Positions 22,216-41,187 of a stretch of DNA of 64,000 bases are shown piece by piece; position 1 is the stretch's first letter, and every line of letters starts with the position of its first letter. The DNA comes from Clostridia bacterium (GTDB taxonomy: Bacteria; Bacillota; Clostridia; Oscillospirales; Acutalibacteraceae). The stretch spans positions 81,726 to 145,725 of the forward strand of contig JAFTUG010000009.1 of NCBI GenBank assembly GCA_017466365.1. Reading direction: 5' to 3'. The notes below the pieces were generated by a model. That model had not been told where the DNA came from and did not search any database. It saw only the letters and a program-made list of their open reading frames with translations. A program made the translations under genes and the position numbers.

Positions 22216-22362
22216 ATGGCAACTAAAACAGAGAGTGTAGCAATTAAGGTTACGCCAGAAGAAAAAGAATTAATTAAGAAATTAGCAGAAAATGCTGATA
22301 TGACAGTATCAAAGTATTTATACAAAGTTATATAGGGGGTATTAAACAATGAGAGATATTAA
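22216..22362 (+). CDS. Ribbon-helix-helix protein, C-terminus depends on the code used
   Basis: A small DNA-binding protein: KTESVAIKVTPEEKELIKKLAENADMTVSKYL has the beta-strand and helix pattern of Arc/CopG/MobC-type RHH proteins. In the standard code it would end at TAG 22333 (39 residues); with TAG read through it ends at TAA 22360 (48 residues), overlapping the next gene by 14 bases. TAGGAG precedes the ATG. It is the first gene of the rightward late series and could regulate it. Confidence 0.7.
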
Positions 22363-22813
22363 AGGATATGAGGGCTTATATGCCGTTACTAGTTGCGGAA
22401 AAGTATGGAGTTACCGCAGTTAGAAATTTTTGAAACCAGCAGATAATGGACACGGTTACTTATCTTTAGTGCTTATTAAAGACGGAATAAAGAAACATTA
22501 CAGAGTGCATAGGTTAGTAGCAGAAGCTTATTTAGGTGAAGCACAAGGAAGAGATGTTAACCACAAAGATAGTTGCAGGAGTAATAATAATATTAACAAC
22601 TTGGAATATGTAACTAGAAAAGAAAACTGCAAACTAGCTAATATGAGTGGTAGAACTGGCAAAGTAAAAGTTATTTGTGTTGAAACTGGCGCAATATATG
22701 AAAGTTAGGCAGAAGCCACAAGAGAAACGGGAATAGGAAGATACAATATTAGTAATTGTATAACTGGAAAACAGAAAACCGCAGGCGGTTATCATTGGGA
22801 GTGTGTAGAATGA
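22349..22813 (+). CDS. HNH endonuclease with NUMOD4 and NUMOD1 domains (two in-frame TAG)
   Basis: A 154-residue nuclease when TAG is decoded. The NUMOD4 segment (GYEGLYAVTSCGKVWSYRS-TAG-KFLKP) leads into an HNH-type core (HRLVAEAYLG, VNHKD, NNLEYVTRKENC), followed by a NUMOD1-like DNA-binding part (EAxRETGI, TGKQKTAGGYHW). TAG codons at 22421 and 22706 fall at positions where the families often have polar residues. Stop TGA overlaps the ATG of the next gene (ATGA). Such enzymes occur as free-standing homing endonucleases or next to terminases, where they assist packaging. Confidence 0.85.
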
Positions 22814-23247
22814 ATAGCGGTGCAATAGGTAGGGTTGGTGAATTACTCTTTTAGGAGATAATGGAAAACGGCGGCTATACTGTAGAAGATGTTAGCGGCA
22901 ATAGTGAATACTGGTATAGAGATATTGATTTTTTAGTTACTTCTCCATATAGCGGTTTAACAAAATCATTTGAGGTTAAATGGGATAGCCGCATTAATAA
23001 AACTGGTAACTTATTTTTAGAGATAGCCAGCGCAAACAGTAAAGGCGGTAAAGGCTGGTTTAAGTTCTGCGAAGCTGACTATATAGCATACGGAGATGCG
23101 GCAAGCCGCAAGTTTTATGTTATTCCACTTCTGGAACTTAAAGAGAGAGTAGCGCAGTTGCCGCAGAGATAGGCAAGATGCGGCTAGGAAAGTATAGGTT
23201 TATTAGTATCATTAAATGATATTAAAGATATTATAAAAATTATATAA
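22810..23247 (+). CDS. PD-(D/E)XK nuclease-like protein (three in-frame TAG)
   Basis: A 145-residue protein starting MNSGAIGRVGELLF-TAG-EIM. The motif IDFLV followed about 15 residues later by FEVKWDSR is the D...ExK signature of the PD-(D/E)XK fold, found in resolvases and restriction-like nucleases. In the standard code it would start later and end at TAG 23170. With TAG decoded it runs 25 codons further to TAA 23245, which is fused to the GGGGG ribosome binding site of the next gene exactly as at other phage junctions, so the long form is preferred. Possible role: processing of branched phage DNA. Confidence 0.75.
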
Positions 23248-23259
23248 GGGGGAATTACA

Positions 23260-23439
23260 ATGGCAATTATTTTAATTTTATTATGGTGGGTATTAGTTTA
23301 GTTATCTGCTCCTACTTGGTGCTTTGTGCTTCTGGCGGTGGTAGCTTTTCTAAAATGCCTAGATGCTTTTATAGAAGCAATAAAAACAGTAATAGAAGCA
23401 TACGACAAAAAACTAATTGAAAAGGCAAATAAGAAATAA
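23260..23439 (+). CDS. Small membrane protein (one in-frame TAG)
   Basis: A 59-residue protein with two hydrophobic segments (MAIILILLWWVLV-TAG-LSAPTW and CFVLLAVVAFLKCLDAF) and a charged lysine-rich tail. The amber codon at 23299 sits in the loop between them. TAAGGGGG precedes the start. It could be a holin-like or superinfection protein; the sequence gives no proof. Confidence 0.65.
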
Positions 23440-23454
23440 GGGGGCGGCGCAATT

Positions 23455-23607
23455 ATGCAGGATTATTTAAAGGAATTTAGAGAAAAACTCAATTTAAAGG
23501 ATAAGTTTGATTAGGCTTTACTTCTGGATACAATGTTATTCATTGCAGAAGCAGAACAGAGAAAAAAGGGCAATAACAATAAATCAAGCAGTAACAAAAG
23601 TAACTAA
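23455..23607 (+). CDS. Small phage protein of unknown function (one in-frame TAG)
   Basis: A 50-residue protein, helix-rich at the N-terminus (MQDYLKEFREKLNLKDKFD-TAG-ALLLDTMLFIAEAEQ) and ending in an N/S/K-rich tail. TAAGGGGGCGG precedes the ATG. The continuous hydrophobic-acidic pattern across the TAG supports reading through it. No family recognised. Confidence 0.6.
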
Positions 23608-23622
23608 TAATAGAGGCTAAAT

Positions 23623-23655
23623 GGGTATAGCGGCGGCGCTATGCCCTTTTTCTTT
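23623..23655 (+). terminator. Terminator before the terminase genes
   Basis: Arms GGGTATAGCG / CGCTATGCCC (one G-T pair) followed by TTTTTCTTTT. It separates the small nuclease cluster from the packaging genes. A 31-codon open frame (ATG at 23619) crosses it and is not called. Confidence 0.75.
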
Positions 23656-23728
23656 TGGAACTAAAGTTATAGAGAGAATAGCAAAATACTTTACTTATAT
23701 AAAGAAGAAATAATAAGGCGGTGAGAAT

Positions 23729-24073
23729 ATGGCTAGAACAATTACAACTAAACAAAGAGCGGCGCTGGAAATGCTTACTTCTGGCAAAGGTTACACTTTT
23801 AAAGAGATAGCCGAAACAGTAGGAGTTAATGTAAAGACACTTTATGACTGGCGCAATAACCCCGATTATACCCTGTTTCAAGACGAGCTAAAGCGCATAA
23901 ATGATGCACGCTGGCAAGCGGCAGAAGATGCGGCTAGAGAGGGCGCAATAAACCTATGTAGGGAAGGTAATTAGAAAATGATAGAATTTGTATTAAAGAA
24001 CTGCGGCTACAACCCTACAAGCAAAGTAGAGGCAGATGTAACACTTGATACAGTAATTGAAATTACGGAATAA
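23729..24073 (+). CDS. terS: Terminase small subunit, HTH type (one in-frame TAG)
   Basis: A 114-residue DNA-recognition subunit of the packaging motor. The N-terminal HTH reads MLTSGKGYTFKEIAETVGVNVKTLYDWRNNPDYTLF, as in phBC6A51-type small terminases. The C-terminal part EGN-TAG-KMIEFVLKNCGYNP matches the family's oligomerisation and peptide region, where Q or P precedes K-M. Only with TAG decoded does the conserved VLKNxGY segment stay in the protein. AAGGCGG precedes the ATG. Confidence 0.88.
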
Positions 24074-24088
24074 AAGGAGTAGATAGAA

Positions 24089-24778
24089 ATGGCTAAAACA
24101 AATACAGGATTAGTAGCATACGCAAAAGCGCAATTAGGTTTACCTTATTGGTACGGCACTTTTGGATAGACGGCAACAGAAGCGCTTTATAAAGCAAAGG
24201 CTAAACAATATCCCAGTAGATACAAGCGCTCTAATTATAATCAAGGCTGGGCGCACTAGTACGGCGCAAGAGTACACGATTGTGTAGGACTTATTAAGGG
24301 GTATTTATGGAGTGATACTCCTACAAGCGCTCCTAAATACAAGGCGGCGCAGGATTTAAGCGCTGACGGAATGATTAAGGCTTGCAAGAGAAAAGGCGCT
24401 ATAAAAACAATGCCAGAAGTTGTAGGGCTTTTGGTACATTACAAAGGACATATAGGGGTATATATCGGTAACGGCTATGTAATTGAAGCAAGGGGGCATA
24501 ATTACGGAGTTGTAAAGACAAAGTTAAGCGATAGAGGCTGGACTAGCTGGGGCTATTGCCCTTTTATCACTTATGCAACCGCCGCAAATTACTTTAAAAA
24601 GTGTGATGCTAAATATACTTCTATTGTTGATGCTCTTGGTAGTATCGGAGTTAATAGCTCTTTTAGTTATAGATTAAAGATAGCTGGTGCTAATGGAATT
24701 AAAGGATATGTAGGAACGGCGCAACAGAACATTAAATTATTAACCCTTCTAAAGCAAGGCAAGTTAATTAAGCCTTAA
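24089..24778 (+). CDS. Endolysin, NlpC/P60-type (two in-frame TAG)
   Basis: A 229-residue cell-wall hydrolase. The start AYAKAQLGLPYWYGTFG-TAG-TATEALY and the segment GWAH-TAG-YGARVHDCVGLIKGYLW are the hallmark of Clostridia phage NlpC/P60 endolysins, in which both amber positions are glutamine as far as I recall (YGTFGQ and QYG before the catalytic Cys). The catalytic Cys is in HDCVG (residue 65) and His in YKGHIGVYIG (residue 121). Residues about 175-229 look like a short wall-binding module (IGVNSSFSYRLKIAGANGI). A truncated 26-residue peptide is all the host code would give, so lysis depends on recoding. It lies unusually between the terminase subunits. Confidence 0.9.
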
Positions 24779-24794
24779 CAGGAGTTAATAAACA

Positions 24795-26033
24795 ATGGCA
24801 GTTACACTAAAACTTGATAAATCTATATTTGTTCCTAAATACTATCCTTTATTGTTTAACTATTCGCATAGGTGGGAAATTTATATGGGTAGCGCTGGCT
24901 CTGCTAAATCCTACTTTATAACACAAAAGATAATTGCTAGATGCTGGAACGAGCCTATAAAAGTTTTAGTTTGCCGCAGAACTGCTACAACTATTAGAAA
25001 CACTTGTTTTAGCTTGTTTAAGGATATACTAACCAAATGGCGGCTATATCCGCAGTATGTGAAGATAAGGGAAACAGATTTTAATATTAAATTCCCTAAT
25101 GGCTCTGAAATTATCTTTAGTGGGCTTGATGAAGAAACAAAACTATTAAGCCTTAATAATATAGGTTGCATTTTTATAGAGGAAGCATTTGAAGTGCCAA
25201 AGCCAATAGTAGAGTAGTTAAACCTACGATTAAGAGGCACTACCCAGAATAAGCAAATTATAATGGCTTTTAACCCTATTAGCAAAAACCATTGGCTTTA
25301 TGATTTCTGCGAGAAAGAGCCGCCGCAGAGTTTTATATACATACATAGCACATATAAAGATAACCCTTTTCTAGATGAAGAAAATAGAAAAGCATTAGAG
25401 GAAATGCGCACCAGAAACCCCAGTAAATATAGGGTTTATGGCTTGGGTGAATGGGGAGTAGATGTAGAGGGGCTAGTAATTACCAACTGGCGCACAGAAG
25501 AATTTAACCCTATGGAGTTAGCGGCTCTTGGATATGAACATAGAGCAGGAATGGATTTAGGCTGGGTAGATAAAAGCGCAATTATTAATACTCTTTATGA
25601 CAGAGCAAATAAAACTATATATGTATTTGATGAATTTTATAAAAGCGGTTGCCAGTTATCGGAACTTGCTACGGCTCTAAAAGATATGTAGCTAACAAAA
25701 ACAAAAGTATATGTAGATGCCGCAGAAGCACGAAGTATAGCCTACTTCAAGCAAGAAGGGTTAAGGGCAGAAGCCTGTAAAAAGGGTGCAGGAAGTGTTA
25801 AAGCTGGTTTAATGTTCCTGCAAGATTGCCTAATAATAGTACACCCTAATTGTAAAAACTTTATTATGGAATTAGAAAACTTTAGCTATATAAAGAGCAA
25901 GCAAACAGGAGAATTTACAGAAGATACTACACACGAATATTCGCACGCAATAGATGCTTGCAGATATGGATATAGTGATATTTACACACAACAGAAATTA
26001 AAAACTATAAATAAATCTACACTAAATTTATAA
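24795..26033 (+). CDS. terL: Terminase large subunit (two in-frame TAG)
   Basis: A 412-residue packaging ATPase-nuclease. Walker A is GSAGSAKS (residues 32-39), Walker B CIFIEEAFE, and the coupling region VE-TAG-LNLRLRGTTQ contains an amber codon at 25215 exactly where this family has glutamine (QLNLRLRG). The second amber is at 25689 (DM-TAG-LTKTKVYVD). The nuclease domain carries GMDLGW, VDAAEA and HAIDACRYGY with the acidic metal ligands. Without TAG decoding the ATPase and nuclease domains would be separate fragments. Confidence 0.93.
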
Positions 26034-26047
26034 ATGGGGGTAGAAAG

Positions 26048-26344
26048 ATGATTGAATATTTATATAACGCAATAGTTGCCAGCGCTGAAACAGATATAGA
26101 GATAGTAGCAAAGGTAACAAGCGCAGAGGGCGCACCGATTAATAGTAATTGCAACCTAGTATTATACGATAATGACGGCGCAGAAAAATATATTGTTAAT
26201 GGTGAAACAGTAGATACTAATGGCTACTGGCGCTTTGTCATTCCAGCCGATGAAACAAGGGGTAAAAAGAACAGTAGATTATTTTACTGCATTAGAGAAG
26301 GTAATAAACCACTTTGTTTTAAAGAGCCTGTTTATTTGATGTGA
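26048..26344 (+). CDS. Small phage protein, beta-rich, unknown function
   Basis: A 98-residue protein with no TAG. The pattern (IVAKVTSAEGAPI, NLVLYDNDGAEKYIVNG, WRFVIPADETRGK, RLFYCIREGNKPLCFKEPVYL) suggests an immunoglobulin-like beta sandwich. Small proteins of this type occur beside tail fibre genes in Clostridia phages, so it may belong to the host-binding apparatus with the next gene. Stop TGA. Confidence 0.65.
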   Translation: MIEYLYNAIVASAETDIEIVAKVTSAEGAPINSNCNLVLYDNDGAEKYIVNGETVDTNGYWRFVIPADETRGKKNSRLFYCIREGNKPLCFKEPVYLM

Positions 26345-26354
26345 GGTGTTATAA

Positions 26355-27989
26355 GTGGCTATTGAATTAATAAAACAAAAAGCAAATATAAACCTAGAAT
26401 CAGAGCAAGACGAACTAAATTTTAAACAGGCTCTAAAGGGTGAAAAGGGAGATAGCGGCTTTTCTCCTATTGTAGAAGTGATTGAGGCAGAAGAAGGACA
26501 CAATGTTGTTATTACAGACAATGAAGGGGTAAAAACCTTTTTTGTTAAAGACGGTGAAAGCGGCACAACTCTAACAAGTGGAGATAATACAGTAGTAGAA
26601 GATAATGCTATTAATGTTTATACAAATACTGGCTATATAATTAGTGATAATGATATTAGATTATAGCCAATATATGATAATGGAACTTCTGGAACTAATA
26701 AATTAGTTTATACAGATAATGAAGTAATGGTTATATATAATGGCGGTATATATATCAAAAGAAGTGAAAACGGCATTGATTTTGAAAATATTAGATTGCC
26801 ATTTAGTTGTAAATCTATGTTTTATAATCCAATTAGCAAAAAGATTTATGGATTATGTGTTAATAGTTACTTTATATATAGCGAAGATGACGGATTAACT
26901 TGGCAATTAAAACAACATAACATTGCTGGCGGTGCTGACTATATATGCAGAGCGCAAGCACATATCGGGGGCTTTGCATTAATAAATAAAACCTCTAAAA
27001 AGTTATATGGGTTAACTGAAAACTTTGTTTAGAGTGGTGGGGCAATAACAAGCACTATTGTTCCAGAGTTTTTAACACAGTTTGCTCAACACCAGTTTAT
27101 TTGGTGCAATACCGCAGGCACTTTTAAATATGGCGCAGGAAGTCAAGAGGGTAATTTTGCTTCTCTTACTCTTACTGGATTTGAAAGGGTTAGTTGTTTA
27201 GTGAATATTGAAGGTTATCCAATAGTAGGTTTAAGTAATAGCCAAAGGATTTTTAGATTAAAGAATTTTAGCGGTGTTACTGATAATGAATGGGTTGAAT
27301 ATACCTTACCGCAAACTTGCTCTGTTTATGACATTACTTTTAATCCATACGATAAAACATATTACATACTTACTAATGTTAATACTTATTTTAAAACTAA
27401 AGATTTTATTGAATATGAAAGTATAGATGCAGACGGATTAAGAGGTAAAGATGCAGAATTTACTTTAATGGGTATTCAAGCAACAGTAGAGAATGAGCCA
27501 AACAAGCTGCTTTTAGCGCCAACTAGAACAAAGTTAGAAAATAAAGCGCAAGAATGGGATAGAGCGCTAGATAAAAGTAGATGGGTTGGCAATGGATTAG
27601 AACTGGTTGGAGAATAGATTAATGTAAAACCAGCAAGCGAAACTATAAAAGTTACTGCAAGTGGAATTTAGCTAGGAATAGTAGATGAATACCATATAAC
27701 CGAAAATATGCTAAAAGCTATTTATTTATCGCTTGCTGACTTGTGGGTTAGCTTTAATCCAACGGATATGGAAACTTGGTTTTGGGAAAGCGGATTCCCA
27801 GTAGATGATAGTTTTATAGCACATAAATTTATATTTAGTGAAGCAGGAACTTTTTATGAATAGTTAAATTGGGAAATTGAATATACGGTAGAGCAATACG
27901 AATATGGTTATATGTTTGTTGATGCTACTAACAATATTACTGAATATGTGAAATTAGGAAACCTATCTAGTCTTTTAAATAAGGGGTGA
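26355..27989 (+). CDS. Tail-fibre-like protein with BNR/Asp-box repeat (five in-frame TAG)
   Basis: A 544-residue protein starting with GTG. A phage fibre-type N-terminus (KQKANINLESEQDELNFKQALKGEKGDSGFSPIVEVIE) with a short collagen-like GEKGDSG leads into repeated beta-propeller blades, one with the Asp-box SEDDGLTW and neighbours such as NPISKKIYGL and NPYDKTYYIL. TAG at 26664, 27030, 27615, 27669 and 27861 are all in frame and the stop is TGA. It is probably a receptor-binding or glycan-binding fibre. Its place between the large terminase and the portal is unusual. Confidence 0.75.
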
Positions 27990-27994
27990 TTATA

Positions 27995-28168
27995 TTGTTA
28001 AATCCAGATAATATTTACAGAATGAAAGATAATAGCTTGATAGCTATATACAACATTATTAAGGACAGATTAGAAACAGAAGAATTAAAGCCTAGTGTAG
28101 AAGCAATATTTATTGTTAATCTTGATATTCTAAAGTTAGAAATAGATAGAAGGGGGCTAAATGTGTGA
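27995..28168 (+). CDS. Small phage protein between fibre and portal genes
   Basis: A 57-residue protein without TAG. TTG at 27995 is taken as the start because AAGGGG lies eight bases upstream; a GTG at 27986 in the same frame overlaps that site. Content is helical (YNIIKDRLETEELKPSVEAIFIVNLDILKLEIDR). The stop TGA overlaps the GTG start of the portal gene. No family recognised. Confidence 0.55.
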   Translation: MLNPDNIYRMKDNSLIAIYNIIKDRLETEELKPSVEAIFIVNLDILKLEIDRRGLNV

Positions 28169-29487
28169 TTTATTTATCTAAAGAAACAGAATTAACAACA
28201 GAACTGTTACAAAAACTAATTAACAAGTTTACTGTTGAGAACTTACCCAGATTAAAGAAGTGGGAAAACTACTATAAAGGCAGACACGCAATATTAAATA
28301 AGAGTTATAAAGACAGTAGCAAGGAATGTAACCATATTGTAACAAACTACTGCAAGATTATTACTGATACCTATAGCGGCTATATTTGCGGCAAGCCTGT
28401 TACATATACCAGCAACAATGATATTGAAGATGTGCAAGAAGTAATTAACTATAACGATAGCAATGCAGAGGATATGTAGTTTTTAACTAATGCTCTTGTT
28501 TATGGTGTTAGCTATGAGTTGAAATGGCTAGATAGATATGCGCAAGTGCGTTATTCACAAGTTAACCCTACTTCTGGCTTTGCTATTTATGATAACACAT
28601 TAGATTGTGAATTGCTTTATTTTGTGCGCTGGTATAAGGAAAACACACTAGATGAAAGCAACGATTATATTATTGAAGTATATAGCGCTTTTGAAAAGAT
28701 TAGATACAGAAGCGCAGGACTAGGCGGCGCACTTACACACATTGATAATGAACAACACTATTTTAAAGATGTTCCAGTTAGTGTGTTTTATCTTAATGAG
28801 AATGAGGAAAATATTTTTAACTCTATTATCACTCTTAACGATGCTTACAATGAATTACAAAGTAGTGAAATTGATGATTTTAATGCTTGGGTTGATGCCT
28901 ATTTAGTGTTAAAAGGGGTTGATGCGGAAACAGACGATATAGCCGCAATGAAAGAGAATAGAGTGTTAGTATTGCCTAGTGATGCAAGCGCAGAATGGTT
29001 AACCAAAAATGCTAATGATACACAGATTGTTAATATGCTTGACAATATTAAAAAGAATATTTTTAAAGTTACCGCTTGCCCAGATATGGCAGACGAGAAT
29101 TTTTTAGCGCAGAGTGGAACGGCGCTAGCCTATAAATTAGTAGGATTTGAAAATGTAGCTAGCGGCATTGTAGCAAGATTTACAAAGGCTTTACAAAGAA
29201 GAATTGAACTAATTTGCAATGTGCTAAACCTTAAAGCAAGTGAGGCAGTATGGAGAGATATTAATATTAATTTTGTTAGAAACCTACCAGTTAATATTAC
29301 TGAAACTATCCAGTTAGTTAATAACCTTAAAGGCTCTGTTTCAGATGCTACATTAATTAGCCAGTTACCATTTATTGATGATGTTAACGCAGAATTAGAA
29401 GCACTCCAGAAGCAGAAACAAGATAACATTGCGCTTTACTCCTTCGGCTCTCCTGCTTCTGGCGCAGAAGATGAAGAAGAAGCCTAA
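28165..29487 (+). CDS. Portal protein, SPP1 gp6-like (one in-frame TAG)
   Basis: A 440-residue head portal subunit that forms the DNA entry ring. Typical segments: WENYYKGRHAIL, NHIVTNYCKIITDTYSGYICGKPV, and SGTALAYKLVGFENVASG. The amber codon at 28477 lies in AEDM-TAG-FLTNALVYG, a region where the family has a polar residue before a hydrophobic helix. Start is GTG with AAGGGGG nine bases upstream; stop TAA. It is followed by the Mu gpF-like gene, the normal order. Confidence 0.92.
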
Positions 29488-29562
29488 AAACTGGGGCAGA
29501 AATTATTAAAGTGGTTATATACAATTTCTACTTATAATAGAACGGCGCAGGAGTGATTAAAA

Positions 29563-30345
29563 ATGAGTAATAATTATTGGGCTGAACGAATGGCAAAAGC
29601 GCAAGATAAGATAACATAGAAACATATAGAAGATGTTGAAAAACAGTTATCTAAATACTATTCAACAGCTATGAAGCGCACTATAGCAGACTTTGAAGCA
29701 ACCTACGATAAGTTACTAGCAACTGTAGCTGACGGTGTAGAGCCTACTCCAGCGGATTTATACAAGCTGGATAGATACTGGGAACTGCAAGCACAGTTAA
29801 AAACAGAACTAGAAAAACTGGGAGAAAGACAAGTAAAGTTATTTAGTGATGCTTTTGAGGAATAGTTTTTTGATATATATAACTCTATTTCTATTCCTTC
29901 TGCAACGGCATATAGCACTATTGATAAAGGAATAGCGCAACAGATGATTAATCAAATATGGGTTGCAGACGGAAAGAACTTTAGTTAGAGAATATGGGGC
30001 AACACAGAAAAGTTAATAGAAACTCTTAACGAGGAATTAATAAATTGTGTTGCTACTGGAAGAAATACAAACGAATTAAAACAACTGCTACAAGAAAGAT
30101 TTAATGTTAGTTACTCTAACGCAGATAGCATAGTTAGAACTGAAACGGCGCATATACAGACACAAGCGGCTAAACAAAGATATACCGATTACGGAATACA
30201 AGAGGTTGAAGTGTGGGCTGATGAAGATGAGCGCAGATGTGAAGTGTGCGGCAAACTTCACTAGAAGCGATACCCAGTAGGCGCAAATATGCCTATACCG
30301 GCGCACCCTAGATGCCGTTGCGCTATTATTCCGGTAGTAGATTGA
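29563..30345 (+). CDS. Minor head protein, Mu gpF/SPP1 gp7-like (four in-frame TAG)
   Basis: A 260-residue minor capsid protein. Diagnostic parts: NYWAERMAKAQDKIT near the start, DGKNFS-TAG-RIWGNTEKL (usually FSQRIW or FSERIW), and the C-terminal zinc-binding-like CEVCGKLH-TAG-KRYPVGANMP...HPRCRC. Ambers at 29617, 29863, 29986 and 30262. The C-terminal Cys/His motif is lost in the standard code, which supports decoding. Stop TGA. Confidence 0.9.
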
Positions 30346-30460
30346 TTTAATAAATAGCGAGCCTTTTTTACTTGGGGTTAGGCTCTAATAAAAGAAACAA
30401 CAAAATTTTGAAGGGGCGGCTAGATGATTCTAACTGCAACTTATTTAGGAGAGTATAGAA

Positions 30461-31027
30461 ATGACAGAACAAACAATTAACACTAGTGTTGAAACAGAAG
30501 CAGTAGAAACAACTGCAACAGAAGAAGTAAAAACCTACACACAAGATGAAGTATTAGCGCTTTTATAGAGTGAAACAGATAAAAGAGTATCACAGGCGCT
30601 AAAGACACAACAAAAGAAATACGAAAAACAGCTATCTTTATCAAAACTTGACGGAGATGAAAGAGCAAAGGCAGAAAAGGATAACCGCATAGCAGAACTA
30701 GAGGAACAGTTAGCGGCTTTTCAGATAGAGCGCAACAGAAGCGAATTAAAAAGTGTTTTAGGCTCTAGAGGTTTGAGCGCTGAATTTGCTGATATTATCG
30801 CAATTAATGATGATATTGAGGCTTCGCAAGCAAACATTGATAAATTAGACAAGCTGTTTAAAGCGGCGGTTAAAGCAGAGGTAGAGAAAAGGCTAGCAGG
30901 AAGTGCGCCAAAAGGAAACACTACCAGCGCCGCAGAAATTACAAAAGATACTGCTAAAAAAATGAGTTTAGCAGAACTACAAGAACTGGAAAGAACAAAC
31001 CCAGAACTATTTAACAAATTATTTTAA
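30461..31027 (+). CDS. Capsid scaffold protein, DUF4355 type (one in-frame TAG)
   Basis: A 188-residue, highly charged coiled-coil protein directly before the capsid gene, the usual place for a scaffold. TYTQDEVLALL-TAG-SETDKRVSQAL matches the DUF4355 signature, where Q before S-E-x-DKRV is common. A long helix (residues 45-100) and a conserved C-terminus (SLAELQELERTNPELFNKLF) are present. AGGAG lies before the ATG; stop TAA. Confidence 0.88.
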
Positions 31028-31044: not shown

Positions 31045-31815
31045 ATGGCTAATACAGTTTATTCAAATAAAATTATTGAAGCAAAAGCAAAGGATTTACT
31101 TACAACTGCGGTTAATACTCGTTCACTTATGACTATTGATAATGAGTTAGCACAGGGCGCAGGAATGACAAAAACAGTTAATGTTTACACATATAGCGGA
31201 ACTGCTGAAGAAGTAGAAGCAGGACAGGGCAACACTAACAGAGGCTCTATTAAATATGTTCCTACTGATTACACAGTAAAAATGGTACAGTAGGCTTTTG
31301 ATTATCAAGATGAGGATTTTATGAAAGATAATACTATCGTTGATAATATGATTAAGGGCGCTAATCAAGTAATGGTTAATAAAATGACTGCTGATTTTAT
31401 CGCAGAGTGCGCAAAGGCTACACTTTCACATACTTTTACTGCTTTTGGTTATGAGGCTATTGTTGACGGTATCGCAAAGTTAAACCTTGAAGATGAAAGC
31501 AAGTTATTTGTAGTTATTCCTAATGCTTGGAAAGCTGATTTAAGAAAAGATGAAGATTACAAGAGCGCAAGAATGGGCGAAGTTATCTATAACGGATAGG
31601 TTGGCACAATTTGCGGTATTCCTGTAATTGCTACTAATGCTCTTACCGATGCGGCTTATGTAATGAGCGCAGAAGCAGTTAAACTCTTTATGAAGAAAGA
31701 TGTAGAAGTAGAACAGGATAGAGATGCAGACACAAGAACTAATAGTGTTTACCTTCGTACTGCATATCTTGTAGCACTTGTAGATAATACAAAGATTTGC
31801 AAACTTTCACAGTAA
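31045..31815 (+). CDS. Major capsid protein (two in-frame TAG)
   Basis: A 256-residue HK97-fold coat protein of the short N4-gp56/DUF-type found in Firmicutes siphophages. Start MANTVYSNKIIEAKAKDLL, then NVYTYSGTAEEV, VKMVQ-type segment interrupted by TAG (31291) before AFDYQDEDFM, and GEVIYNG-TAG-VGTICGIPVIAT (31597). The GxxIPV segment is conserved near the C-terminus of this family. AGGAGG upstream. It is the most highly made virion protein, so two ambers here demand efficient suppression. Confidence 0.9.
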
Positions 31816-31876: not shown

Positions 31877-32170
31877 ATGATTGATGAACTAAAGGTATAT
31901 TTAGGAGAAACCGCAGATAACTTTACAGATGCGCAAATAGGGCTAGCTTTAAAGTTTGCATTAGCAGAAATTGAAGCATACACTAAACGCACTCTAGATT
32001 ATGAGTTAGAGGTTGCGGCACTCCAGATAGCAAAGATTAAGCTATTAAGACTTGACACAGAAGGGTTAGCCGCTACTGGATTTAATGGAGTTAGTGAAAC
32101 ATACATAGACGGTTACCCAGACGAGATTAAGGCGCTACTAAACAGAAAGCGCAAGATTAAGGTGGTGTAA
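31877..32170 (+). CDS. Head-tail connector protein
   Basis: A 97-residue helical protein with no TAG, of the short gp6-like connector family: MIDELKVYLGETADNFTDAQIGLALKFALAEIEAYTKR, then VAALQIAKIKLLRLDTEGL. It has AGGGGG before the ATG and TAA as stop, and lies directly after the capsid gene, as is usual. Confidence 0.8.
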   Translation: MIDELKVYLGETADNFTDAQIGLALKFALAEIEAYTKRTLDYELEVAALQIAKIKLLRLDTEGLAATGFNGVSETYIDGYPDEIKALLNRKRKIKVV

Positions 32171-32172
32171 TA

Positions 32173-32463
32173 ATGATTAACGCAGATATGCGCACTTATG
32201 ATTATTACACCTATAGCGGCTTTAATGAATATGCAGAGCCGCAGTTATCAGAAGAAGTGCAAGGCTCTATTAAAATTGCAATTTATACAACTTCTCAAAA
32301 TGTAACAGATAATATCAACTATAGAGATGCTAACTATATAGGATTAACCAGAGCAAGCGCAGTAGATGATAGTTATGTTATTCAGTACGGAGAAGAAAAA
32401 CTAAAAGTTCTCTATATCCAGTCAAAAGGCAGATTTAAACAGGTATTCTTTAAAAAGATATGA
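32173..32463 (+). CDS. Head-tail adaptor or head completion protein
   Basis: A 96-residue beta-rich protein without TAG (RTYDYYTYSGFNEYAEPQLSEEVQGSIKIAIY; DDSYVIQYGEEKLKVLYI). Size, content and position match SPP1 gp16-like stoppers. The stop TGA overlaps the start of the next gene (ATGA). The family call is positional. Confidence 0.7.
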   Translation: MINADMRTYDYYTYSGFNEYAEPQLSEEVQGSIKIAIYTTSQNVTDNINYRDANYIGLTRASAVDDSYVIQYGEEKLKVLYIQSKGRFKQVFFKKI

Positions 32464-32951
32464 GTATTTAGCTAGAAGGATTAGAGGATATTTTAGCAAG
32501 TATAGAGCAAGTAGCAGACACTTCAAATTTAGATGATGCGCTAGGCAAGGCTTGTGCAATGGTAGAAAGAAGCGCAAAACAGAAAGCGCCAAAAGGTGAA
32601 GGAACATTAAGGCGCAGTATTACAAGCAAAGTAGAAGATAATCAAGGAATAGTTTTTACTCCGTTATTTTATGCGCCCTATGTTGAATACGGAACAGGCA
32701 TTTATGCAGAGGACGGCAAGGGGCGGCAAAATGTGCCGTGGGTATATGTTGAAGGCTCAACTAAAGAAAGTAGCAGTAGTAAAACATACACCGAACAAGA
32801 AGCAGAGGCGGCAGTAGAATATTTACGCAGTAAAGGGCTAGAAGCATATAAAAGCTATGGTAGAAAGCCAGAGCCTTTTATGCGCCCTGCGCTATATGAA
32901 AACAGAGAAAAAATATTAGAACTTATTAAGGGGGAATTGTTAAATGATTGA
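32460..32951 (+). CDS. HK97 gp10-like head-tail protein (one in-frame TAG)
   Basis: A 163-residue tail completion protein: MSI-TAG-LEGLEDILASIEQ at the start (amber as the fourth codon), VERSAKQKAPKGEGTLRRSI, YAPYVEYGTGIYA, and PFMRPALYENREKIL. These are the signature blocks of the HK97 gp10/TIGR01725 family. In the standard code only a later start could be used and the conserved N-terminus would be lost. Confidence 0.88.
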
Positions 32952-33288
32952 TTATACCCCTAATTTAGTAGCAACATTACAGACAATATTACCTACACAC
33001 TATGAAATGGTATTAACAAGCAAGACGGCTACACCGTGTATAAGCTATATGGAGCTAAACAACAATATGACGGAAACAGGAGATACACTAGGATATAGCC
33101 GCATTACATACTAGGTTAAAGTGTGGGGAAACGATATTAAAACAGTTACTAAATATGCTCTAGAGGTTGATAAGGCATTAAAACAACTGGGATTTAAAAG
33201 AATATCCAGCGGAGAAATGCACGATAACCAGAGTACAATTATTCAGAAAATACTAACCTATGAAGCATTGGCTTTAGAAAATTATTAA
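32944..33288 (+). CDS. Tail completion or tail terminator protein (one in-frame TAG)
   Basis: A 114-residue protein. It starts inside the previous gene (eight-base overlap) and has the pattern TPCISYMELNNN, GYSRITY-TAG-VKVWGNDI, and GFKRISSGEMHD, resembling the gp17/tail terminator family, in which the amber position is commonly a polar residue in YxVKVW. Stop TAA. Confidence 0.8.
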
Positions 33289-33305
33289 TATAGGGGGCTT
33301 TTATA

Positions 33306-33695
33306 ATGGCAGTTATTAGTAAAGGTATTACTTTATCATACAAGGAAAGCACAGGTAGCACTTTTGTAGAACTTGAAAACCTACAGGAGATTCCAGAGTT
33401 AGGCGGAGATACAGAGGCTATTGAAATTACCACTTTAGCAGATGCCGCACATATGTATACAGACGGCATTAAAAACTATGGTGATAGCCTAACATTTAAA
33501 TTCCTTTATGAAAAAGAATAGTTTAGCACACTTAACGCACTTGCAGATAGTGTTGAATGGAAGGTAGAACTACCAGACGGCGCTACTTGCACCTTCGGCG
33601 GCACTTGCTCTGCTAAACTTGACGGAGTAGGAGTTAATGCGGCTCTTACTTATACATTAGCAGTTAAGCCTAATTCAGAGATGAAATGGGCATAA
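33306..33695 (+). CDS. Major tail tube protein (one in-frame TAG)
   Basis: A 129-residue tube protein: MAVISKGITLSYKE, LQEIPELGGDTEAIEITTLADAAHMYTDGIKNYGDSLTFKFLYEKE-TAG-FSTLNAL, and a C-terminal beta-hairpin with YTLAVKPNSEMKW. The EALEVTTL and KFxY blocks are typical of short siphophage tail tubes. The amber at 33519 follows the second block. AGGGGG upstream. Confidence 0.85.
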
Positions 33696-33713
33696 CATAA
33701 CCCATTAATGGGA

Positions 33714-33746
33714 GTAGTGGAGAGTATTCTCTCCACTCTCCACTAC
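33714..33746 (+). terminator. Two mutually exclusive hairpins after the tail tube gene
   Basis: AGTGGAGAG-TATT-CTCTCCACT (33716-33737) and GTAGTGGAGAG / CTCTCCACTAC (33714-33746) share the same left arm, so only one can form. There is no strong T-tract. It may attenuate transcription or stabilise the abundant tube mRNA. Confidence 0.55.
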
Positions 33747-33776
33747 AAATTTATATAAATCAAGGAGAGATTAAAA

Positions 33777-34112
33777 ATGATGTATGTTGACTTTTCAGCA
33801 GGTAATAAAGAATACAAATTAAGATTAAATACAAGAAACATTGTTACACTTGAAAAATAGTTAGGTTGTAATCCTTTAGCGCTTTTCGGTGACGGCTCTA
33901 CAATGCCAACAGTAACAGAAATGGTTAATGTATTGTATTGTGCGCTCCAGCCACTTAATCACGGAATAACATTAAATGATGCTTATGATATTTTTGATGC
34001 TTATTTAGCAGACGGTAACGGCGCAACAGACTTTATTACAGTAATTTTAGATATTTACAAAGTATCAGGACTTATTAGAAATGAAGTTAAGGAAGAAACC
34101 GAAAAAAACTAA
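33777..34112 (+). CDS. Tail assembly chaperone, short form (gpG-like, one in-frame TAG)
   Basis: A 111-residue chaperone for tape-measure assembly: YVDFSAGNKEYKLRLNTRNIVTLEK-TAG-LGCNPLALFGDG matches the family block LExxLGxNPL. AAGGAGAG precedes two consecutive ATG codons (33777, 33780). The gene ends GAA-AAA-AAC-TAA, and this end is a slippery sequence for -1 frameshifting into the next frame, as in lambda G/GT and many Gram-positive siphophages. Confidence 0.88.
34103..34109 (+). promoter_or_regulatory. -1 programmed ribosomal frameshift site
   Basis: The heptamer A-AAA-AAC is in the correct phase (X XXY YYZ) immediately before the TAA of the short chaperone. A slip of one base makes the ribosome bypass that TAA and continue in an uninterrupted frame to 34513. 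I did not identify a clear downstream pseudoknot. Confidence 0.88.
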
Positions 34113-34513
34113 TTAAAGGAGAGGCTAGCCCTTCTCCATTCTTATTTAGTGATTATTTGTATAAATGGTTAGAAAATGCTCTGGATTATGGGATTAGTGA
34201 GGCTGACTTTTGGAATATGACACTAGCGGAACTGGAGCGCCTATTAGATAGCAAGCGCCGCACCCAGAAGCGGCAAGCACAAGAAAAGGCTACATTTGAT
34301 TACATATTAGCAGATTTAATAGGGCGCAGTATATCTAGGTTATATAGCGCTAGTAATGAAATGCCAGATATAGCAACAGTATATCCTACTCTATTTGACA
34401 CTAAACAAATAGAAGAACAAAAGAGCATTAAAAAGGCTGAATTATCTGCGGCAAGGTTTAGACAGTTTGCAAATTCCTTTAATGCTAAAAGGGGGCAACA
34501 ACTGAATGAATGA
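34109..34513 (+). CDS. Tail assembly chaperone extension (T part of gpGT-like fusion)
   Basis: After the -1 slip the frame reads LIKGEASPSPFLFSDYLYKWLENALDYGISEADFWNM and ends at TGA 34511. The FxDYLYKWLE...GISExDFWxMT block is the usual T-domain start in Firmicutes phages. There is no ATG near the beginning; a TTG at 34157 is the only alternative, so fusion by frameshift is the preferred reading. The stop overlaps the tape measure ATG at 34506. No TAG occurs in this part. Confidence 0.85.
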   Translation, partial: LIKGEASPSPFLFSDYLYKWLENALDYGISEADFWNMTLAELERLLDSKRRTQKRQAQEKATFDYILADLIGRSISRLYSASNEMPDIATVYPTLFDTKQIEEQKSIKKAELSAARFRQFANSFNAKRGQQLNE

Positions 34514-36347
34514 GCAATTAAAAATTATAATTTCGGCTGAAATAGACAAATTAAAGAAAAATGTTGATGAAGCAAAGAGCAAGGTTGGCAGTTTTAAAGA
34601 TGAAGTTAACAAGGCTTCAAAGAATGTAGATAAAGATTTTAAAGCGGCTGGAGAAGCAATAAACAACGGAATGAAAGTAGGGGCGGCGGCGCTTACTGGT
34701 GTTGCTACTGCTTTACTTGCTCTTGGCGAAAGTACAAAAGAATATAGAAACGAATAGGCAAAATTACAAACAGCTTTTGAAACCGCAGGCGCTAGCGCAG
34801 AAGTAGCAAAAGGAACATATAACGATTTATACAGAGTTCTTGGAGATACAGGACAGGCTACAGAAGCGGCGGCGCACTTGGCGCAATTAACAACTAATGA
34901 GCAAGAGTTAAGCCAATGGACTAATATTTGTCAAGGTGTTTATGCTACTTTTGGCGCTTCTCTACCTATTGAAGGTTTAACCGAAGCGGCTAACGAAACT
35001 GCAAAAGTAGGACAAGTTACAGGCGGCTTGGCTGATGCTCTTAACTGGGCTGGTATTAGTGAAGATGCTTTTAATGAAAAACTGGCGGCTTGCAACACAG
35101 AAGCAGAAAGAGAAGAATTAATTAGAGAAACCCTAAACGGAATTTATAGCGAAGCGGCGGCAAACTATGAAAAGAATAACGCATAGATTCTGGCGCAGAA
35201 TGAAGCACAAGAAAAATTAAACTCTGCTATGGCTACTCTGGGTGAAGCAACTGCGCCTATTATGACAATGCTAACCAGTTTAGCAGGAGATGTATTAAGT
35301 GCATTAACACCTTATGTAAAGGATTTTGCGGATAACTATTTACCAGACATTCAAGAAGCATTAAAGACAGTAGCAGAGAAACTAGAAAGCGCTTTAACAT
35401 TCTTAATGGAACATAAAGCTATTTTAGGGGTTATGGCTGGTATTATCGGAACTGTTGTTACTGCTATTGGCTTATATAATGCGGTTGCGGCGGTTAAGGC
35501 GGCAATGGATGCGGCACAAGTTACTACTTTAGGTGGTTTAATCGCAGTTCACGCAGCACACGCAGCGGCGGTTATGGCTTCTCTAGCGCCTTATGTTGCT
35601 ATAGTTGCGGCAATAGGGGCAGTTATCGCTATTATTGTTGTTTGCGTTAAGCATTGGGACGAGATAAAAGCAAAAGTTATAGAAGTTTGGAACGCAATGA
35701 AAGAAAAGATTTCAGAGGCTAAAGAAAAAATAGTAAACAAAATTACTGAATTAAAAGAAGGAATACAAAACAAAATTAATTCAGTAAAAGAAAATATCAG
35801 CAATACCTTCAACAACATTAAAGAAGGTATGCAACAGAAAATCCAGAGCGCAAAAGAAAATGTATTAGGGGTATTTGATAAAATCAAAGACGGAATTAAG
35901 AAAAAAATAGAAAGCGCAAGAGATACCGTTAAAAATGTTATAGAGAAAATAAAAGGCTTTTTTAACTTTGAGTTTAAGTTACCGAAGTTGAAAACTCCTA
36001 AATTTGCTATTTCTCCTGTTGGCTGGAAAGTTGGAGATTTATTATAGGGTGTTATACCTAAATTAAGTGTTCAATGGAACGCAAGAGGCGGTGTTTTTGA
36101 CAAGCCTACTATTTTTGGATATGGTAATAGCCTACAAGGTATCGGAGAAAACGGCGCAGAGGCAGTAGTACCACTAGAAAACAATTTAGAATGGTTAGAT
36201 AAACTGGCTACTATGTTAAATGATAGAATGGGCGGCGGCTCTCCAGTAGTGCTACAAGTAGATGGTAAAACATTCGCTCAAATTAGCTTTGATAGCATAA
36301 ATCAATTCATAAAACAAACTGGCAACTTGCCAATACAACTAGTTTAA
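34506..36347 (+). CDS. Tape measure protein (three in-frame TAG)
   Basis: A 613-residue tail length protein, short for a siphophage, predicting a short tail. The N-terminus is a coiled coil (IDKLKKNVDEAKSKVGSFKDEV), followed by small-residue-rich membrane-like segments (VGAAALTGVATALLAL; VMAGIIGTVVTAIGLY; YVAIVAAIGAVIAIIVV) and an amphipathic helical repeat region (KIVNKITELKEGIQNKINSVKENI). The C-terminus GYGNSLQGIGENGAEAVVPLE is the standard tape measure end. Ambers at 34755, 35184 and 36045. Confidence 0.92.
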
Positions 36348-36363
36348 GGGGGTAGAGATTATA

Positions 36364-36720: not shown

Positions 36721-36733
36721 GGGGGTATTAGTA

Positions 36734-38767
36734 ATGTTAATAAATGATATTGTGCTAGCCTCTTTAAGAACTCCTGTTAGAACAGTAGAAGGTAGAGCCG
36801 AAGTATATAATAGTGACGGCTCTACCGCATATTCTTTAAGAAGTGATAGCTATTTAAAAGAGTTTAAAGTAGAACGCATAGGAGATAACACAAAATTCTT
36901 TGGATATGGCTTTGTTCACAAGGCTAATGTAAAAGCAAGAGATGTAAACAGAGAAATTGAATTAAGTACAAGTAATACAGTATTACCATACTTTATTGAT
37001 AGAACAAGCGGAGAGCCAGTAGAGATTAAGACATATCCAAAAATGAATATTACAGAAGTTAATAGAGATGAAAATACAAACGAACTTTCTATAACTTGCT
37101 ATGATGCGTTATACAAGGCTACAAAACATAAAGTAGAAGAACTGGCGCTAACCGTTCCCTATACCATACAAGAGTTTGTTGTAGCTTGTGCTTCACTATT
37201 GGGAATTAGTGGTGTTACAACAGTAAATGTTACTGATGATTGCTTTAGTGTTTCATATCCAGAAGGGGCAAACTTTGAAGGAACTGAAACTATTAGAGAT
37301 GCACTAAATGCGGCGGCGGAAGCAACACAAACTATTTACTATATAGATAGTAATAATATACTGGTGTTTAAAAGATTAGATATTAGCGGAGATGCGGTAT
37401 TTAATATTGAAAAGGCTGATTATATCCAGTTAGACAGTAAAACAAACAGAAGATTAGCAACTTTAGTTAGCGCAACTGAATTAGGAGATAGTTTAGAAAC
37501 CACTCATAAGGTATATAACAAGAATATGGCTGATTATCACTAGGCAGTAAACCCAGCAGGAGAAACTTTTACAGAAGTTGATAACGGTTATGTAATTGAT
37601 GTTAGCGGAGAAGATTATAAAAGAATTTCTTTTATACCCTTAAATAAAGAACTTAAAGCAGGAACTTATTATGTAATTAGTTATGATTGGGTTAATATCG
37701 GCACAGAAGAAACAAGTAGTGTAGCCTGTTATTTACCAGATATAGAGCAGTATTTAAGTAATGGTGTAGCATTTACACCAAAAGAAGATACACAAAAAAT
37801 AGGGATATACCTACAAGCCGCAGATGTAGGAAAAGATATTCAAGTAGAAATTACAAATATACAACTTGAAGAAGGAACGGCGGCTACTGACTATGTACCC
37901 TACGGCTACTATTATTTAACTGGTACAACTCAATATATTAGGGATAATCCATTTTGGGATTTAAGAGAAGATAGAACAACATTGTTAGAAAACGCACTAG
38001 CGGCGGTTGGTGGTTTAACCATTAACTAGTTTGAGTGTAACTGGAGAGGTAATTATTTACTTGAAATTGGAGATAAGATTAGCCTAGAAACTAAAGATAA
38101 TAATACGGTATATTCATATATACTAGATGATACAATACACTACAACGGCGCATTAAGTGAGGCTACACAATGGAATTACACAGACAATGAGGAAGAAACA
38201 GAAGCAACGCCTACAACACTAGGAGATGCAATTAAACAAACCTATGCTAAAGTTGATAAGGCTAATAAACAAATTGAAATAGTAGCAAGCGAAACTAACG
38301 CTAATAGTGAAGCGATAGCCGCAATTAGATTAGATACAGATAGTATTAATGCTTCTGTATCAAAAGTTGCAGAAGATACTACCGCCGCAATAGAAGCGGC
38401 AAATAGTAGCATAGCAACATTAACTACTAAAGTTGATGCTTCTATAACCGCAGAGAATGTATAGTTAGTAGTGTAGAAGGAATTAGAAAACGGAGTAGAA
38501 AAAGTTACTACTTCAACTGGATTTACTTTTGATGATGAAGGACTAACTGTATCAAAGACAAATAGCGAGATTAAAACGCAAATAACCGAGGACGGAATGA
38601 GCGTTTATAAGAATGAGGAAGAAGTATTAACCGCAAATAATGAAGGAGTAAAGGCGGCTAACCTTCACGCAACAACCTATTTAATTATAGGTAATTATAG
38701 CCGCTTTGAAGATTACACTAATGCAGACGGAGAAGCAAGAACTGGTTGCTTCTGGATTGGTGATTAA
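36734..38767 (+). CDS. Tail tip/endopeptidase-like protein (four in-frame TAG)
   Basis: A 677-residue protein. The N-terminal part resembles prophage tail (Tal/gp18-like) baseplate hubs: FKVERIGDNTKFFGYGFVHKANVKARDVNREIEL, then ITCYDALYKATKHKV, and EFVVACASLLGI. The middle has a carbohydrate-binding-like segment (residues about 275-390). The C-terminal third is a coiled coil and fibre-like tail (KVDKANKQIEIVASETNANSEAIAAI). Ambers at 37541, 38027, 38462 and 38474. No peptidase motif could be confirmed. Confidence 0.82.
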
Positions 38768-38778
38768 GGGGGTATTAA

Positions 38779-40866
38779 ATGGCTAGCGGAACAATAACAG
38801 GAACAACGAGCAATAAGTATATTAGTGCTAAAATTGAGTGGAGTAGCACAGCAGACACAGCTAACAATAAATCTACTGTAACGGCGAAACTTTATTATAT
38901 GAAGTCAACAGCTTCTACTACAGCTACTAGCGGTGTTATTAATGCAACTATTACTATTAATGGTAATAAATACACATATAATTCTGGCACTAGTAAAACA
39001 TTACCAGTAGACGGCAAATGGTATTATATTACTGAACACGAGGTAGTAGTAGCGCATAATTCAGACGGAAAGAAAAGTATAACAATTAGCGCTACTGGCG
39101 GTATGACAGGAAGTAGTTTTACCTCTACAAGTTTAAGCGGAACGGCAGTATTAACGGATATTCCCAGAAAAGCAACAATAACAAGCGCACCTAATTTTAC
39201 TGATAGTGATAACCCTACTGTTTACTATTCTAATCCAGCAGGAAGTGCAGTAGATTCGCTAAAAATTTGTATTTCATCTACTGGCGCTAGTGATGATATA
39301 GCAAGCTATAGGAGTTGTTCACAAACTGGTAGTAGTTATACTTTCTATCTAACCAGCGCTGAAATTAGCAGATTAAGAGCATTAGTTACTAGCGGCTCTA
39401 GCGCAAGTGTTAAGTTCTATCTTAAAACTACAATAGGTGGAACTGATTACTATAGCACAGTTACAAAAACATTCACTATTAGCGATACCTCTGTTACTTT
39501 CAGTTATAACATATACGATACAAACAGTTTAACAACATCTTTAACTGGTGATAGTAGCAAGATAGTTAAAGGCTATAGTAATGTTTATTATAGTTATTCT
39601 GCAAAATCCAATAGTGGCGCTACAATTACTAGTAATAGTATTAGTTGCGGCTCATAGTATTCAACCGCAACAAGCGGCACATTTAATAAAGTAGAAAGCG
39701 CAAGCTTTGTATTAAAGGCTACAGACAGTAGGGGCAGTAACTTTAGTACAACAGTAACAAAAACATTAATTAACTATTTTAAACCTACACTAAATATGAC
39801 AGTTTACCCACCTAATGCAAGCGGTGATATGATACTAGTATTTACTGGGGCTTTTTATAATGCTTCTTTTGGAAGTTCAACAAATACTATTACAGTTAGA
39901 TATAGTATCAGCCACGAAGATAGTGGCTTTAGTTAGGGCGGCGCAGTTACACTATCCAAAAGCGGTAATAGCTTTACTGGATAGGTTAATATTACTGGGT
40001 TAGATTATAAAAATGTTTATGTAATTAGCGCTAATGCTTATGATTTACTTGATGAAATACAACTAGAGCCAGTTAGAGCAATAGGAACACCTGTTTTTGA
40101 TTGGGGAAAAGAGGATTTTTCTTTTCATTGTAAAGTGAATATGGATATGTCAGATGCTATTTATGGCACAAATACAAGCGGAGAAAAAGTAGAGGCGCTT
40201 ATGCCCTGTAATGGTTATAATAACCTTTCTTTAGGTTATGGTGGTTATAGTAATGGAGAAGGCGCAACTGATATATGGGGTAATTATGTTACTGTATATT
40301 GTAAAAATGATATTGATTTAAGAAGTGATACCCATTGTTACAATGATTTAACAGTTGACGGTGCAACAACACTAAATGATGATGTGGATATTAATGCTGA
40401 TTTACAAGTAGAAAATGTGAAAGTTAATAGCAGTATTAATGTTAGCCTTGATGTAAATTGTGTTAATACTGTAAATGCGGCTAGAGTATGTATAAACAGT
40501 AAAGATGTAGGAGCGCAAACAACACTAAAAAGCGGCATATATCAATATATGCACGGCACACAATCATTTACTTTAAGTGGTACAAGTGCATTAAGTAAAT
40601 AGTTAACTGGATATATAATGGTGTGGAGCTATTATAGTAATGGTAATACTTATGTAAACTGTACTAATTATACTTTTGTACCAAAAAGTGTGTTAGGTTA
40701 TAACGGTGGGCGCATATCAATGCCTTTAGTATTAGATGACGGAACTTGTGGCGCAAAATCTTTAATAATTACAGAAAGCGATGGAGTAACAACTATTAAG
40801 GGTGAAGAAAGAAACGATGACGCACCTAATAACAACTGGGTATTAAATAAAGTAATTGGTTATTAA
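38779..40866 (+). CDS. DUF859-like tail protein (four in-frame TAG)
   Basis: A 695-residue S/T/G-rich beta protein starting MASGTITGTTSNKYISAKIEWSS. This start, KWYYITEHEVVVAHNSDGKKSI and a late GTPVFDWGKEDFSFHCKV segment are typical of the DUF859/siphovirus tail family seen in Streptococcus and Clostridia phages. The C-terminal 180 residues look like a receptor-binding head with repeated N-D-rich strands. Ambers at 39655, 39934, 39982 and 40600. TAAGGGGG precedes the ATG. Confidence 0.8.
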
Positions 40867-40878
40867 GGGGGTTAACAA

Positions 40879-41187
40879 ATGGAATTAACAACTTTTTTAG
40901 AACTTCTTGCTAATTTTGGTTTTCCTATTGCTTGTGTAGTTGCTATGGGCGCTTTTATCTATCATATATACCAAACAACAACAAAAGAAAATGCGGCTAA
41001 TATGGCGGCAGTATAGGCAAGATGCAAAGAGCGAGAAGAAATATTATATAGTGAGATAGCGCAAAATAGAGCAGTAAATGAAAAAGCAATAGAAACCATT
41101 GCGCAGTATGCGGAGAAATTAGAAACAATACAAACAGATATTAAAGAGATAAAAACAGATATTACAGTTATTATGGCTAAACAATAA
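40879..41187 (+). CDS. Holin, BhlA/UviB-like (one in-frame TAG)
   Basis: A 102-residue protein with one N-terminal membrane segment (ANFGFPIACVVAMGAFIYHIY) and a charged coiled-coil tail (KEREEILYSEIAQNRAVNEKAIETIAQYAEKLETIQTDI), the form of BhlA-type holins. The amber at 41014 separates the membrane helix from the coiled coil, so the host code gives only the membrane part. It is the last phage gene, followed by a strong terminator. Confidence 0.82.

Follow-up and report, generated by a model that had tools for sequence, protein, structure and literature searches.

A 64,000-nt stretch of a Clostridia bacterium genome (contig JAFTUG010000009.1; hereafter the window) carries an integrated SPP1-like siphophage at about 18.88-41.50 kb. 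The late operon of this prophage of some 22.6 kb very probably uses genetic code 15, in which TAG encodes glutamine, to judge by codon use and alignment, inside a bacterium that uses the standard code and rarely ends a gene in TAG. Among the 206 glutamine-type codons (CAA, CAG and TAG) of its 25 late genes we found 42 in-frame TAG, which affect 21 of these genes; there is no internal TAA or TGA, and with TAG read as sense all 25 frames run uninterrupted from start to end. A preliminary description of this DNA had counted by hand about 43 in-frame TAG codons interrupting nearly every late gene, with no other stop inside them. The scripted count agrees in all but one codon, and the 43rd is likely to be the ambiguous TAG at 22333-22335.

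A first scripted count of 23 late coding sequences (CDS; 5873 codons) gave 40 in-frame TAG, 0 internal TAA and 0 internal TGA, and two small CDS complete the 25-gene set. The terminators of the late genes are TAA (18) and TGA (7), and never TAG. Open reading frames (ORFs) of at least 100 aa on the plus strand cover 41.8% of positions 22216-41187 under translation table 11 and 88.6% with TAG as sense; with TAA or TGA as sense the coverage is 51.6% or 45.5%. With the stop-codon mix of one or the other shifted frame, 42 stops would all be TAG with a probability of 7e-14 or 3e-28. As the counts per gene are consistent with a binomial distribution (chi2 = 24.5, df = 23), a regulated number of TAG codons, such as one per gene, was rejected.

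We compared the residues that face these codons in alignments with related phages not classed as recoded (the comparison set is described below). Glutamine faces a prophage TAG in 256 of 573 cells (44.7%), and in the same genes and alignments it faces CAA in 760 of 1725 (44.1%) and CAG in 636 of 1252 (50.8%), near-copies among the relatives being kept at full weight in all three counts. Thus, against a control drawn from the same genes and alignments, TAG is by this measure indistinguishable from a glutamine codon, which upholds the earlier suggestion that it is decoded as an amino acid. At individual positions, glutamine is found in all 21 aligned relatives at residue 141 of the terminase large subunit (TerL), in 11 of 11 at residue 72 of the major tail protein, and in all 12 relatives with a residue there (one has a gap) at residue 36 of the scaffold-like protein. 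It weighs against a glutamine assignment that, column by column, glutamine ranks first among the residues in only 13 of 33 TAG columns; however, the CAA and CAG controls indicate that glutamine positions generally vary as much. In 18 of the 21 TAG-bearing genes, each set against its best relative of any kind, the mismatch at codon positions 1, 2 and 3 is 0.26, 0.23 and 0.52 before the first TAG and 0.26, 0.20 and 0.55 after it. This equality suggests that the proteins are made past their TAG codons, or were until very recently. Pyrrolysine was dismissed as the encoded residue, as the PylS N-terminal model was unmatched in the host genome (0/1) and there is no tRNA-Pyl among the host tRNAs.

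The host assembly (G000) is a metagenome-assembled genome (MAG) whose 20 contigs total 2.06 Mb, with a completeness of 79.6%. Its code is the standard one, as had been supposed: the 268 ORFs of at least 150 aa in a 386-kb sample end in TAA (184), TGA (74) or TAG (10), and prfA, the gene for release factor 1 (RF1), is present. Reassignment of TAG by the host itself would fit so low a TAG use, and the 35 standard ORFs that we picked by hand in the window include none that ends in TAG. Nevertheless, ten long host ORFs do end in TAG, prfA is there, and the 386-kb sample yielded five weak ORFs bridged by a single TAG and no more, so that we regard host reassignment as very improbable. Decay of the late genes into ordinary pseudogenes, which would explain in-frame stops in 21 of 25 of them under table 11, is more improbable still, set against 42 TAG with no TAA or TGA, constraint that persists past the first TAG, and the same pattern in several other contigs.

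Within the prophage, the late genes are recoded and the lysogeny-side genes are not (42 TAG among 206 glutamine-type codons vs. 0 among 22), the latter figure being a small sample of five early ORFs at 19084-21031: the integrase, two HTH-like genes and two others. Just before the late block, the TAG at 22333 in a NikA-like ORF may be a true terminator. The earlier claim that every such gene ends in TAA or TGA is therefore correct for all 25 late genes and may fail for this ORF. The codon at 22333-22335 is joined to a ribosome binding site and is the sole candidate TAG terminator in the prophage.

A second recoded prophage lies in G133, a 98% complete genome from another genus of the host's family. 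A comparison of the sequences by eye places its insertion at the same host gene. Its gene order matches that of the window phage, and it carries 32 TAG in 5917 aligned codons. When 200 genomes of the family were searched with TerL, 49 had some match and, besides the window's own, only G133 was close (71%); a head-protein search of 398 genomes likewise found only G133 close (83%), with two others at 43%. Four TAG positions are common to the two phages, in the MuF, major head, tail terminator and major tail proteins. Among the G133 host genes TAG ends 3 of 65 sampled ORFs and prfA is present, while three early ORFs of its phage have 0 TAG among 15 glutamine codons. A viral contig, L188, is the same phage as that of G133 (99.995% over 19,917 bases) and may derive from the same sample. 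The preliminary description had allowed that relatives with sense codons might expose the TAG codons as sequencing errors. Many of these positions are indeed CAG or CAA in relatives; error is nevertheless not indicated, because the G133 prophage is itself recoded, the four positions are shared and TAG is the only stop inside the late genes.

Outside the late genes, positions 20680-21054 of the window are 71% identical to G133. The noncoding stretch 21395-21667 matches G133:C6 57178-57460 (70.6% identity over 289 nt); outside the window phage it occurs only in the G133 phage and in L188, the near-copy of that phage. Neither a tRNA nor an Rfam family reaching its cut-off was found in it. By eye, a conserved AAGGGCTRAATGA loop may be enclosed by a covarying helix. 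A structured RNA ahead of the late genes is no more than a lead, as the stretch is known in two phages only and the fold of 21395-21735 is no better than those of shuffled sequences (z = -1.0). The MuF-family gene of G133 (G133:C6 64764-66020) has 14 TAG and a C-terminal extension, most other genes of that prophage having 0 or 1, and resembles a segment taken from a phage with heavier recoding. Adjoining the prophage, at G133:C6 77102-78061, is what by sequence is a second integrase-like gene, possibly of a second element at the same site.

The comparison set was drawn from a TerL search (30 loci) and a head-protein search (40 loci), with some contigs in both; a search with the 677-aa tail-region protein gave no match. 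Sister phages with a TAG-free TerL reach 81% identity, and the closest named TerL relative is L110 (57%). TAG codons were counted in the true frame in 64 sequences, among them the phages of the window and of G133 and five duplicates. Sense TAG facing glutamine in structural genes was found in the window phage, the G133 phage, L185, L184, L213, L212, L219, L035 and L218; L184 and L185 may be one phage, their head proteins being identical, and few codons underlie the assignments of L035 and L218. The remaining relatives have no sense TAG in the structural genes covered. For the trees, the residue counts and the accessory-gene test below we removed L188, L190, L207, L220 and L221 (duplicates of contigs or of the G133 phage), and the trees also leave out identical rows, 12 for the head protein and 5 for TerL. 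With 37 rows, 7 of them recoded, the head-protein tree requires five changes of label, at least three of them forced by well-supported branches, and the TerL tree (27 rows, 4 recoded) requires four, all forced, with several long branches flagged. Label changes on both trees suggest that recoding, or recoded gene segments, moved more than once in the group.

Some relatives use TAG as a terminator, most clearly L039, L048, L191, L203 and L030, with L189 and L216 ambiguous, and none of the TAG-terminating relatives has a sense TAG in the genes covered. Among relatives with TAG-free structural genes, 10 of 20 contigs have in-frame TAG in accessory genes: 30 of 91 glutamine-type codons there are TAG, compared with 0 of 1972 in the other aligned genes of the same contigs. 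The query set for this test includes four accessory genes chosen from the relatives, and the counts include kin (L045 and L046 are identical in that gene; L036, L037 and L038 are near-copies). The TAG-bearing accessory genes are small, of HNH and PD-(D/E)XK-like kinds, and lie between the early region and the terminase. The extremes are L031, with 10 TAG in one 158-codon gene, and L043, with 4. Between L043 and its near-twin L045, 38 codons of the accessory gene differ, of which 32 are silent, three encode another residue and the last three are TAG in L043 and E, Q or K in L045; that most differences are silent argues for constraint on the protein while TAG comes and goes. L260, found later through the accessory protein, has three TAG in that gene, three in a neighbouring ORF and one in another accessory gene, with none in its aligned TerL and tail genes. 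In this third gene, L260 and L031 each have TAG where the other has Q. Upstream of the TAG-bearing accessory gene, L043 (7738-7814), L045 (3208-3283) and L046 (8359-8434) carry a tRNA-Ile(TAT) gene.

One possible interpretation, which we put forward tentatively, is that recoding in this family is graded and begins with accessory genes, from TAG as terminator through sense TAG in accessory genes to a few members recoded throughout, with TAG read as glutamine by an undescribed route. Several observations count against it. The zero in 1972 codons covers aligned stretches only. The small terminase of L029, L033 and L034 has a TAG a few codons before its TAA or TGA, and similar TAGs near the end occur in lysis-type genes of L040 and L043 and in a holin-like gene of L260; these may be terminators or sense codons. 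The case of L044 is weak, its single TAG being two codons from the end, and one TAG is common to L045 and L046. Stops of other kinds in the accessory-gene test fell outside the genes proper, as a TAA at a gene end (L110) and a TGA before a start (L044). Two other explanations may hold instead: the accessory genes may have arrived recently from recoded phages that share the same cells, or TAG reading in the family may suffice for proteins of low abundance, with only some members having carried the change into structural genes.

We looked for the decoder as a tRNA with a CTA anticodon. ARAGORN and Infernal recognised none in the prophage (Infernal matches being inspected to E = 5 over 19.0-24.0 kb and E = 10 over 24.0-43.5 kb), nor did Infernal in L188 at E up to 3, and 21100-22220 had no tRNA match at E up to 10. 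None is among the 28 tRNAs of the host or the 40 of G133, and ARAGORN called none in 63 viral and genome loci of the family, many of them partial. Below the usual threshold, tRNA models had two matches in G000, which by eye are a tRNA-Phe cut by a contig end and a 3' piece of a tRNA-Arg(CCT), and two in G133, neither called by ARAGORN. The complete gene is about 110 bases away from the tRNA-Arg(CCT) piece (G000:C1 60810-60852), an arrangement that could stem from an integrated element. A pattern search for CTA-type tRNAs matched in 75 of 99 relative genomes. The matches listed for the host's family were rejected, being of two recurring kinds that fall in G000 on tRNA-Arg(TCT) and a tRNA-Leu; there was also one odd match in G001 and some in other families of the order.

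These negative results need to be interpreted cautiously, and two points tell against them. With ARAGORN at an 80% threshold, 14 sequences gave two CTA candidates vs. one in shuffled sequence, and one of the two is in the window prophage, where it lies on the minus strand within a late gene; at 70% there were six vs. 13 in shuffled sequence, and we set the relaxed-threshold candidates aside. In addition, the host MAG is 79.6% complete and G133 is also without some ordinary tRNAs. As both genomes lack some of these, a suppressor tRNA could lie in unassembled DNA, and such a tRNA, whether supplied in trans or encoded in DNA that neither assembly contains, is on balance the likeliest source of decoding.

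The main alternative, possible though less likely, is that ordinary tRNA-Gln reads UAG near-cognately through an unrecognised factor while the phage inhibits or titrates RF1. The lack of a CTA tRNA in all the sets just listed would fit, as would the low TAG use of the host, since loss of RF1 would then cost little. However, up to five TAG per gene, and two in the major head protein, demand efficient decoding; by eye the host's tRNA-Gln(CTG) and tRNA-Gln(TTG) are ordinary, with 5-bp anticodon stems, unlike the 4-bp kind described in PMC13092985; and no RF1 inhibitor was noticed, though no search was aimed at one. It is improbable that the phage encodes an unusual TAG-reading tRNA missed by both programs, for example within 21395-21667. 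That stretch is common to both recoded prophages and stands ahead of the recoded genes, but the surrounding region had no tRNA match even at the relaxed E value, its fold does not exceed shuffled sequence, and only two phages have it.

In the lysogen, host RF1 would terminate at TAG, so that late proteins could not be completed even if transcribed. In lytic growth a glutamine-charged TAG-reading activity, whose source is most likely in trans or in unassembled DNA, would have to outcompete RF1 for the late proteins to be completed. This amber control of lysogeny is an inference, and to that extent weighs against our account.

The prophage has both an integrase and flanking att repeats, the latter a 116-bp direct repeat (84% identity, left against right flank by blastn) that corresponds to the 3' end of a GGGtGRT-family host gene. 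A tyrosine integrase is followed by a short early region and a single long rightward operon (Table 1). The structural families are SPP1-like and in the usual order (PF05133 portal, Terminase_3, MuF, major head and tail proteins), and profile matches thus agree with the order and families first proposed. No replication protein was recognised among the prophage ORFs scanned, a scan outside which a few ORFs, such as 21190-21474 and 26048-26344, fall. By eye, several AACTGCAT repeats with iteron-like spacing are found at 21160-21280 of the window, and repeats of the CTGTATA type occupy the corresponding place in the G133 phage.

Table 1. Features of the prophage, in window coordinates.
Feature	Positions	Strand	TAG codons	Remarks
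attL, 3' end of GGGtGRT-family host gene	18880..18995	+		Pfam PF14057; 84% to attR over 116 bp
Tyrosine integrase	19084..20082	+	0 (15 Gln codons)	PF00589, E = 4.7e-29
Early region	20200..21031	mixed	0 (7 Gln codons)	
46-aa ORF; HTH gene (20455-20628)	within 20200..21031	+; +		
HTH/NinH-like gene (20667-20843); 62-aa ORF (20843-21031)	within 20200..21031	-; -		
Conserved noncoding stretch ahead of recoded genes	21395..21667	+		Match to G133 phage and near-copy L188
NikA-like ORF, 39 aa	22216..22335	+		PF21983, E = 5e-9; TAG at 22333 stop or sense (then end 22362)
HNH endonuclease	22349..22813	+	2	
Accessory protein, PD-(D/E)XK-like by motif	22810..23247	+	3	Pfam support weak, in relatives only
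Two small ORFs, 59 and 50 aa	23260..23607	+	1 each	
Terminase small subunit	23729..24073	+	1	
NlpC/P60 lysis-type protein	24089..24778	+	2	C terminus resembles endolysin PHROGs
Terminase large subunit (TerL)	24795..26033	+	2	
98-aa ORF	26048..26344	+	0	
544-aa protein	26355..27989	+	5	No Pfam or PHROG match
SPP1-type portal	28165..29487	+	1	PF05133, E = 1.1e-98
MuF-like head morphogenesis protein	29563..30345	+	4	
Scaffold-like protein	30461..31027	+	1	Name inferred from position
Major head protein	31045..31815	+	2	phrog_544
Head-tail connectors, major tail protein (33306-33695), tail chaperone, others	31877..34513	+	4 in 7 genes	
Tape measure protein	34506..36347	+	3	
Three genes, 118, 677 and 695 aa	36364..40866	+	9	695 aa resembles tail PHROG; 677 aa no match
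Holin- or spanin-like protein (weak)	40879..41187	+	1	
attR, remnant of GGGtGRT gene 3' end	41384..41499	+		

A complete integrated, recoded phage in a standard-code chromosome was first singled out as meriting detailed study, amber-recoded phages being known from metagenomes. TAG-recoded prophages in standard-code bacteria have, however, already been reported (PMC10746230, citing Borges et al. 2022). According to PMC10746230 and PMC10136315, the code 15 phages and prophages of the gut likewise read TAG as glutamine, mostly in late structural and lysis genes, likewise have standard-code hosts, and are in some cases integrated. Crass-like code 15 phages, with proteomic proof (PMC9523058), read TAG as glutamine in structural genes, as proposed here from sequence, and in phAss-1 TerL (PMC10607447) TAG occurs at positions where other TerL proteins have glutamine, as in the window phage. 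Both are other phage groups, and both have suppressor tRNAs. phAss-1 (136 kb) and Lak (about 540 kb) are also much larger than the window phage and have their own suppressor tRNA; in contrast, for the window phage no such tRNA was recognised in phage or binned host, and sisters with a TAG-free TerL exist. With SPP1-like siphophages it has the structural module order in common, but its best TerL identity among the matches listed from 50,697 phage records is 36.7%, which places it in a distinct group. A phage-encoded suppressor tRNA is common in TAG-recoded phages but does not define them: a Sup-CTA tRNA is reported in 52.4% of code-15 phages (PMC11210395) and in 13% of 285 TAG-recoded genomes (PMC9610469), and a suppressor tRNA is absent from some reassigned crAss-like clades (PMC10136315).

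The window prophage thus joins the known TAG-recoded temperate phages of standard-code hosts, and the TAG codons in accessory genes of its family are the less expected part. How recoded phages without a suppressor tRNA decode TAG is left open in the available text of PMC10136315 and PMC11210395. Here an integrated phage, an assembled host, a 98% complete second host and sisters with TAG-free TerL together make the decoding agent a findable object. The relatives, moreover, offer what look like intermediate states of recoding; if the graded interpretation is true, stop-codon reassignment in this family would have been acquired gene by gene, unlike the published picture of recoding mainly in late genes.

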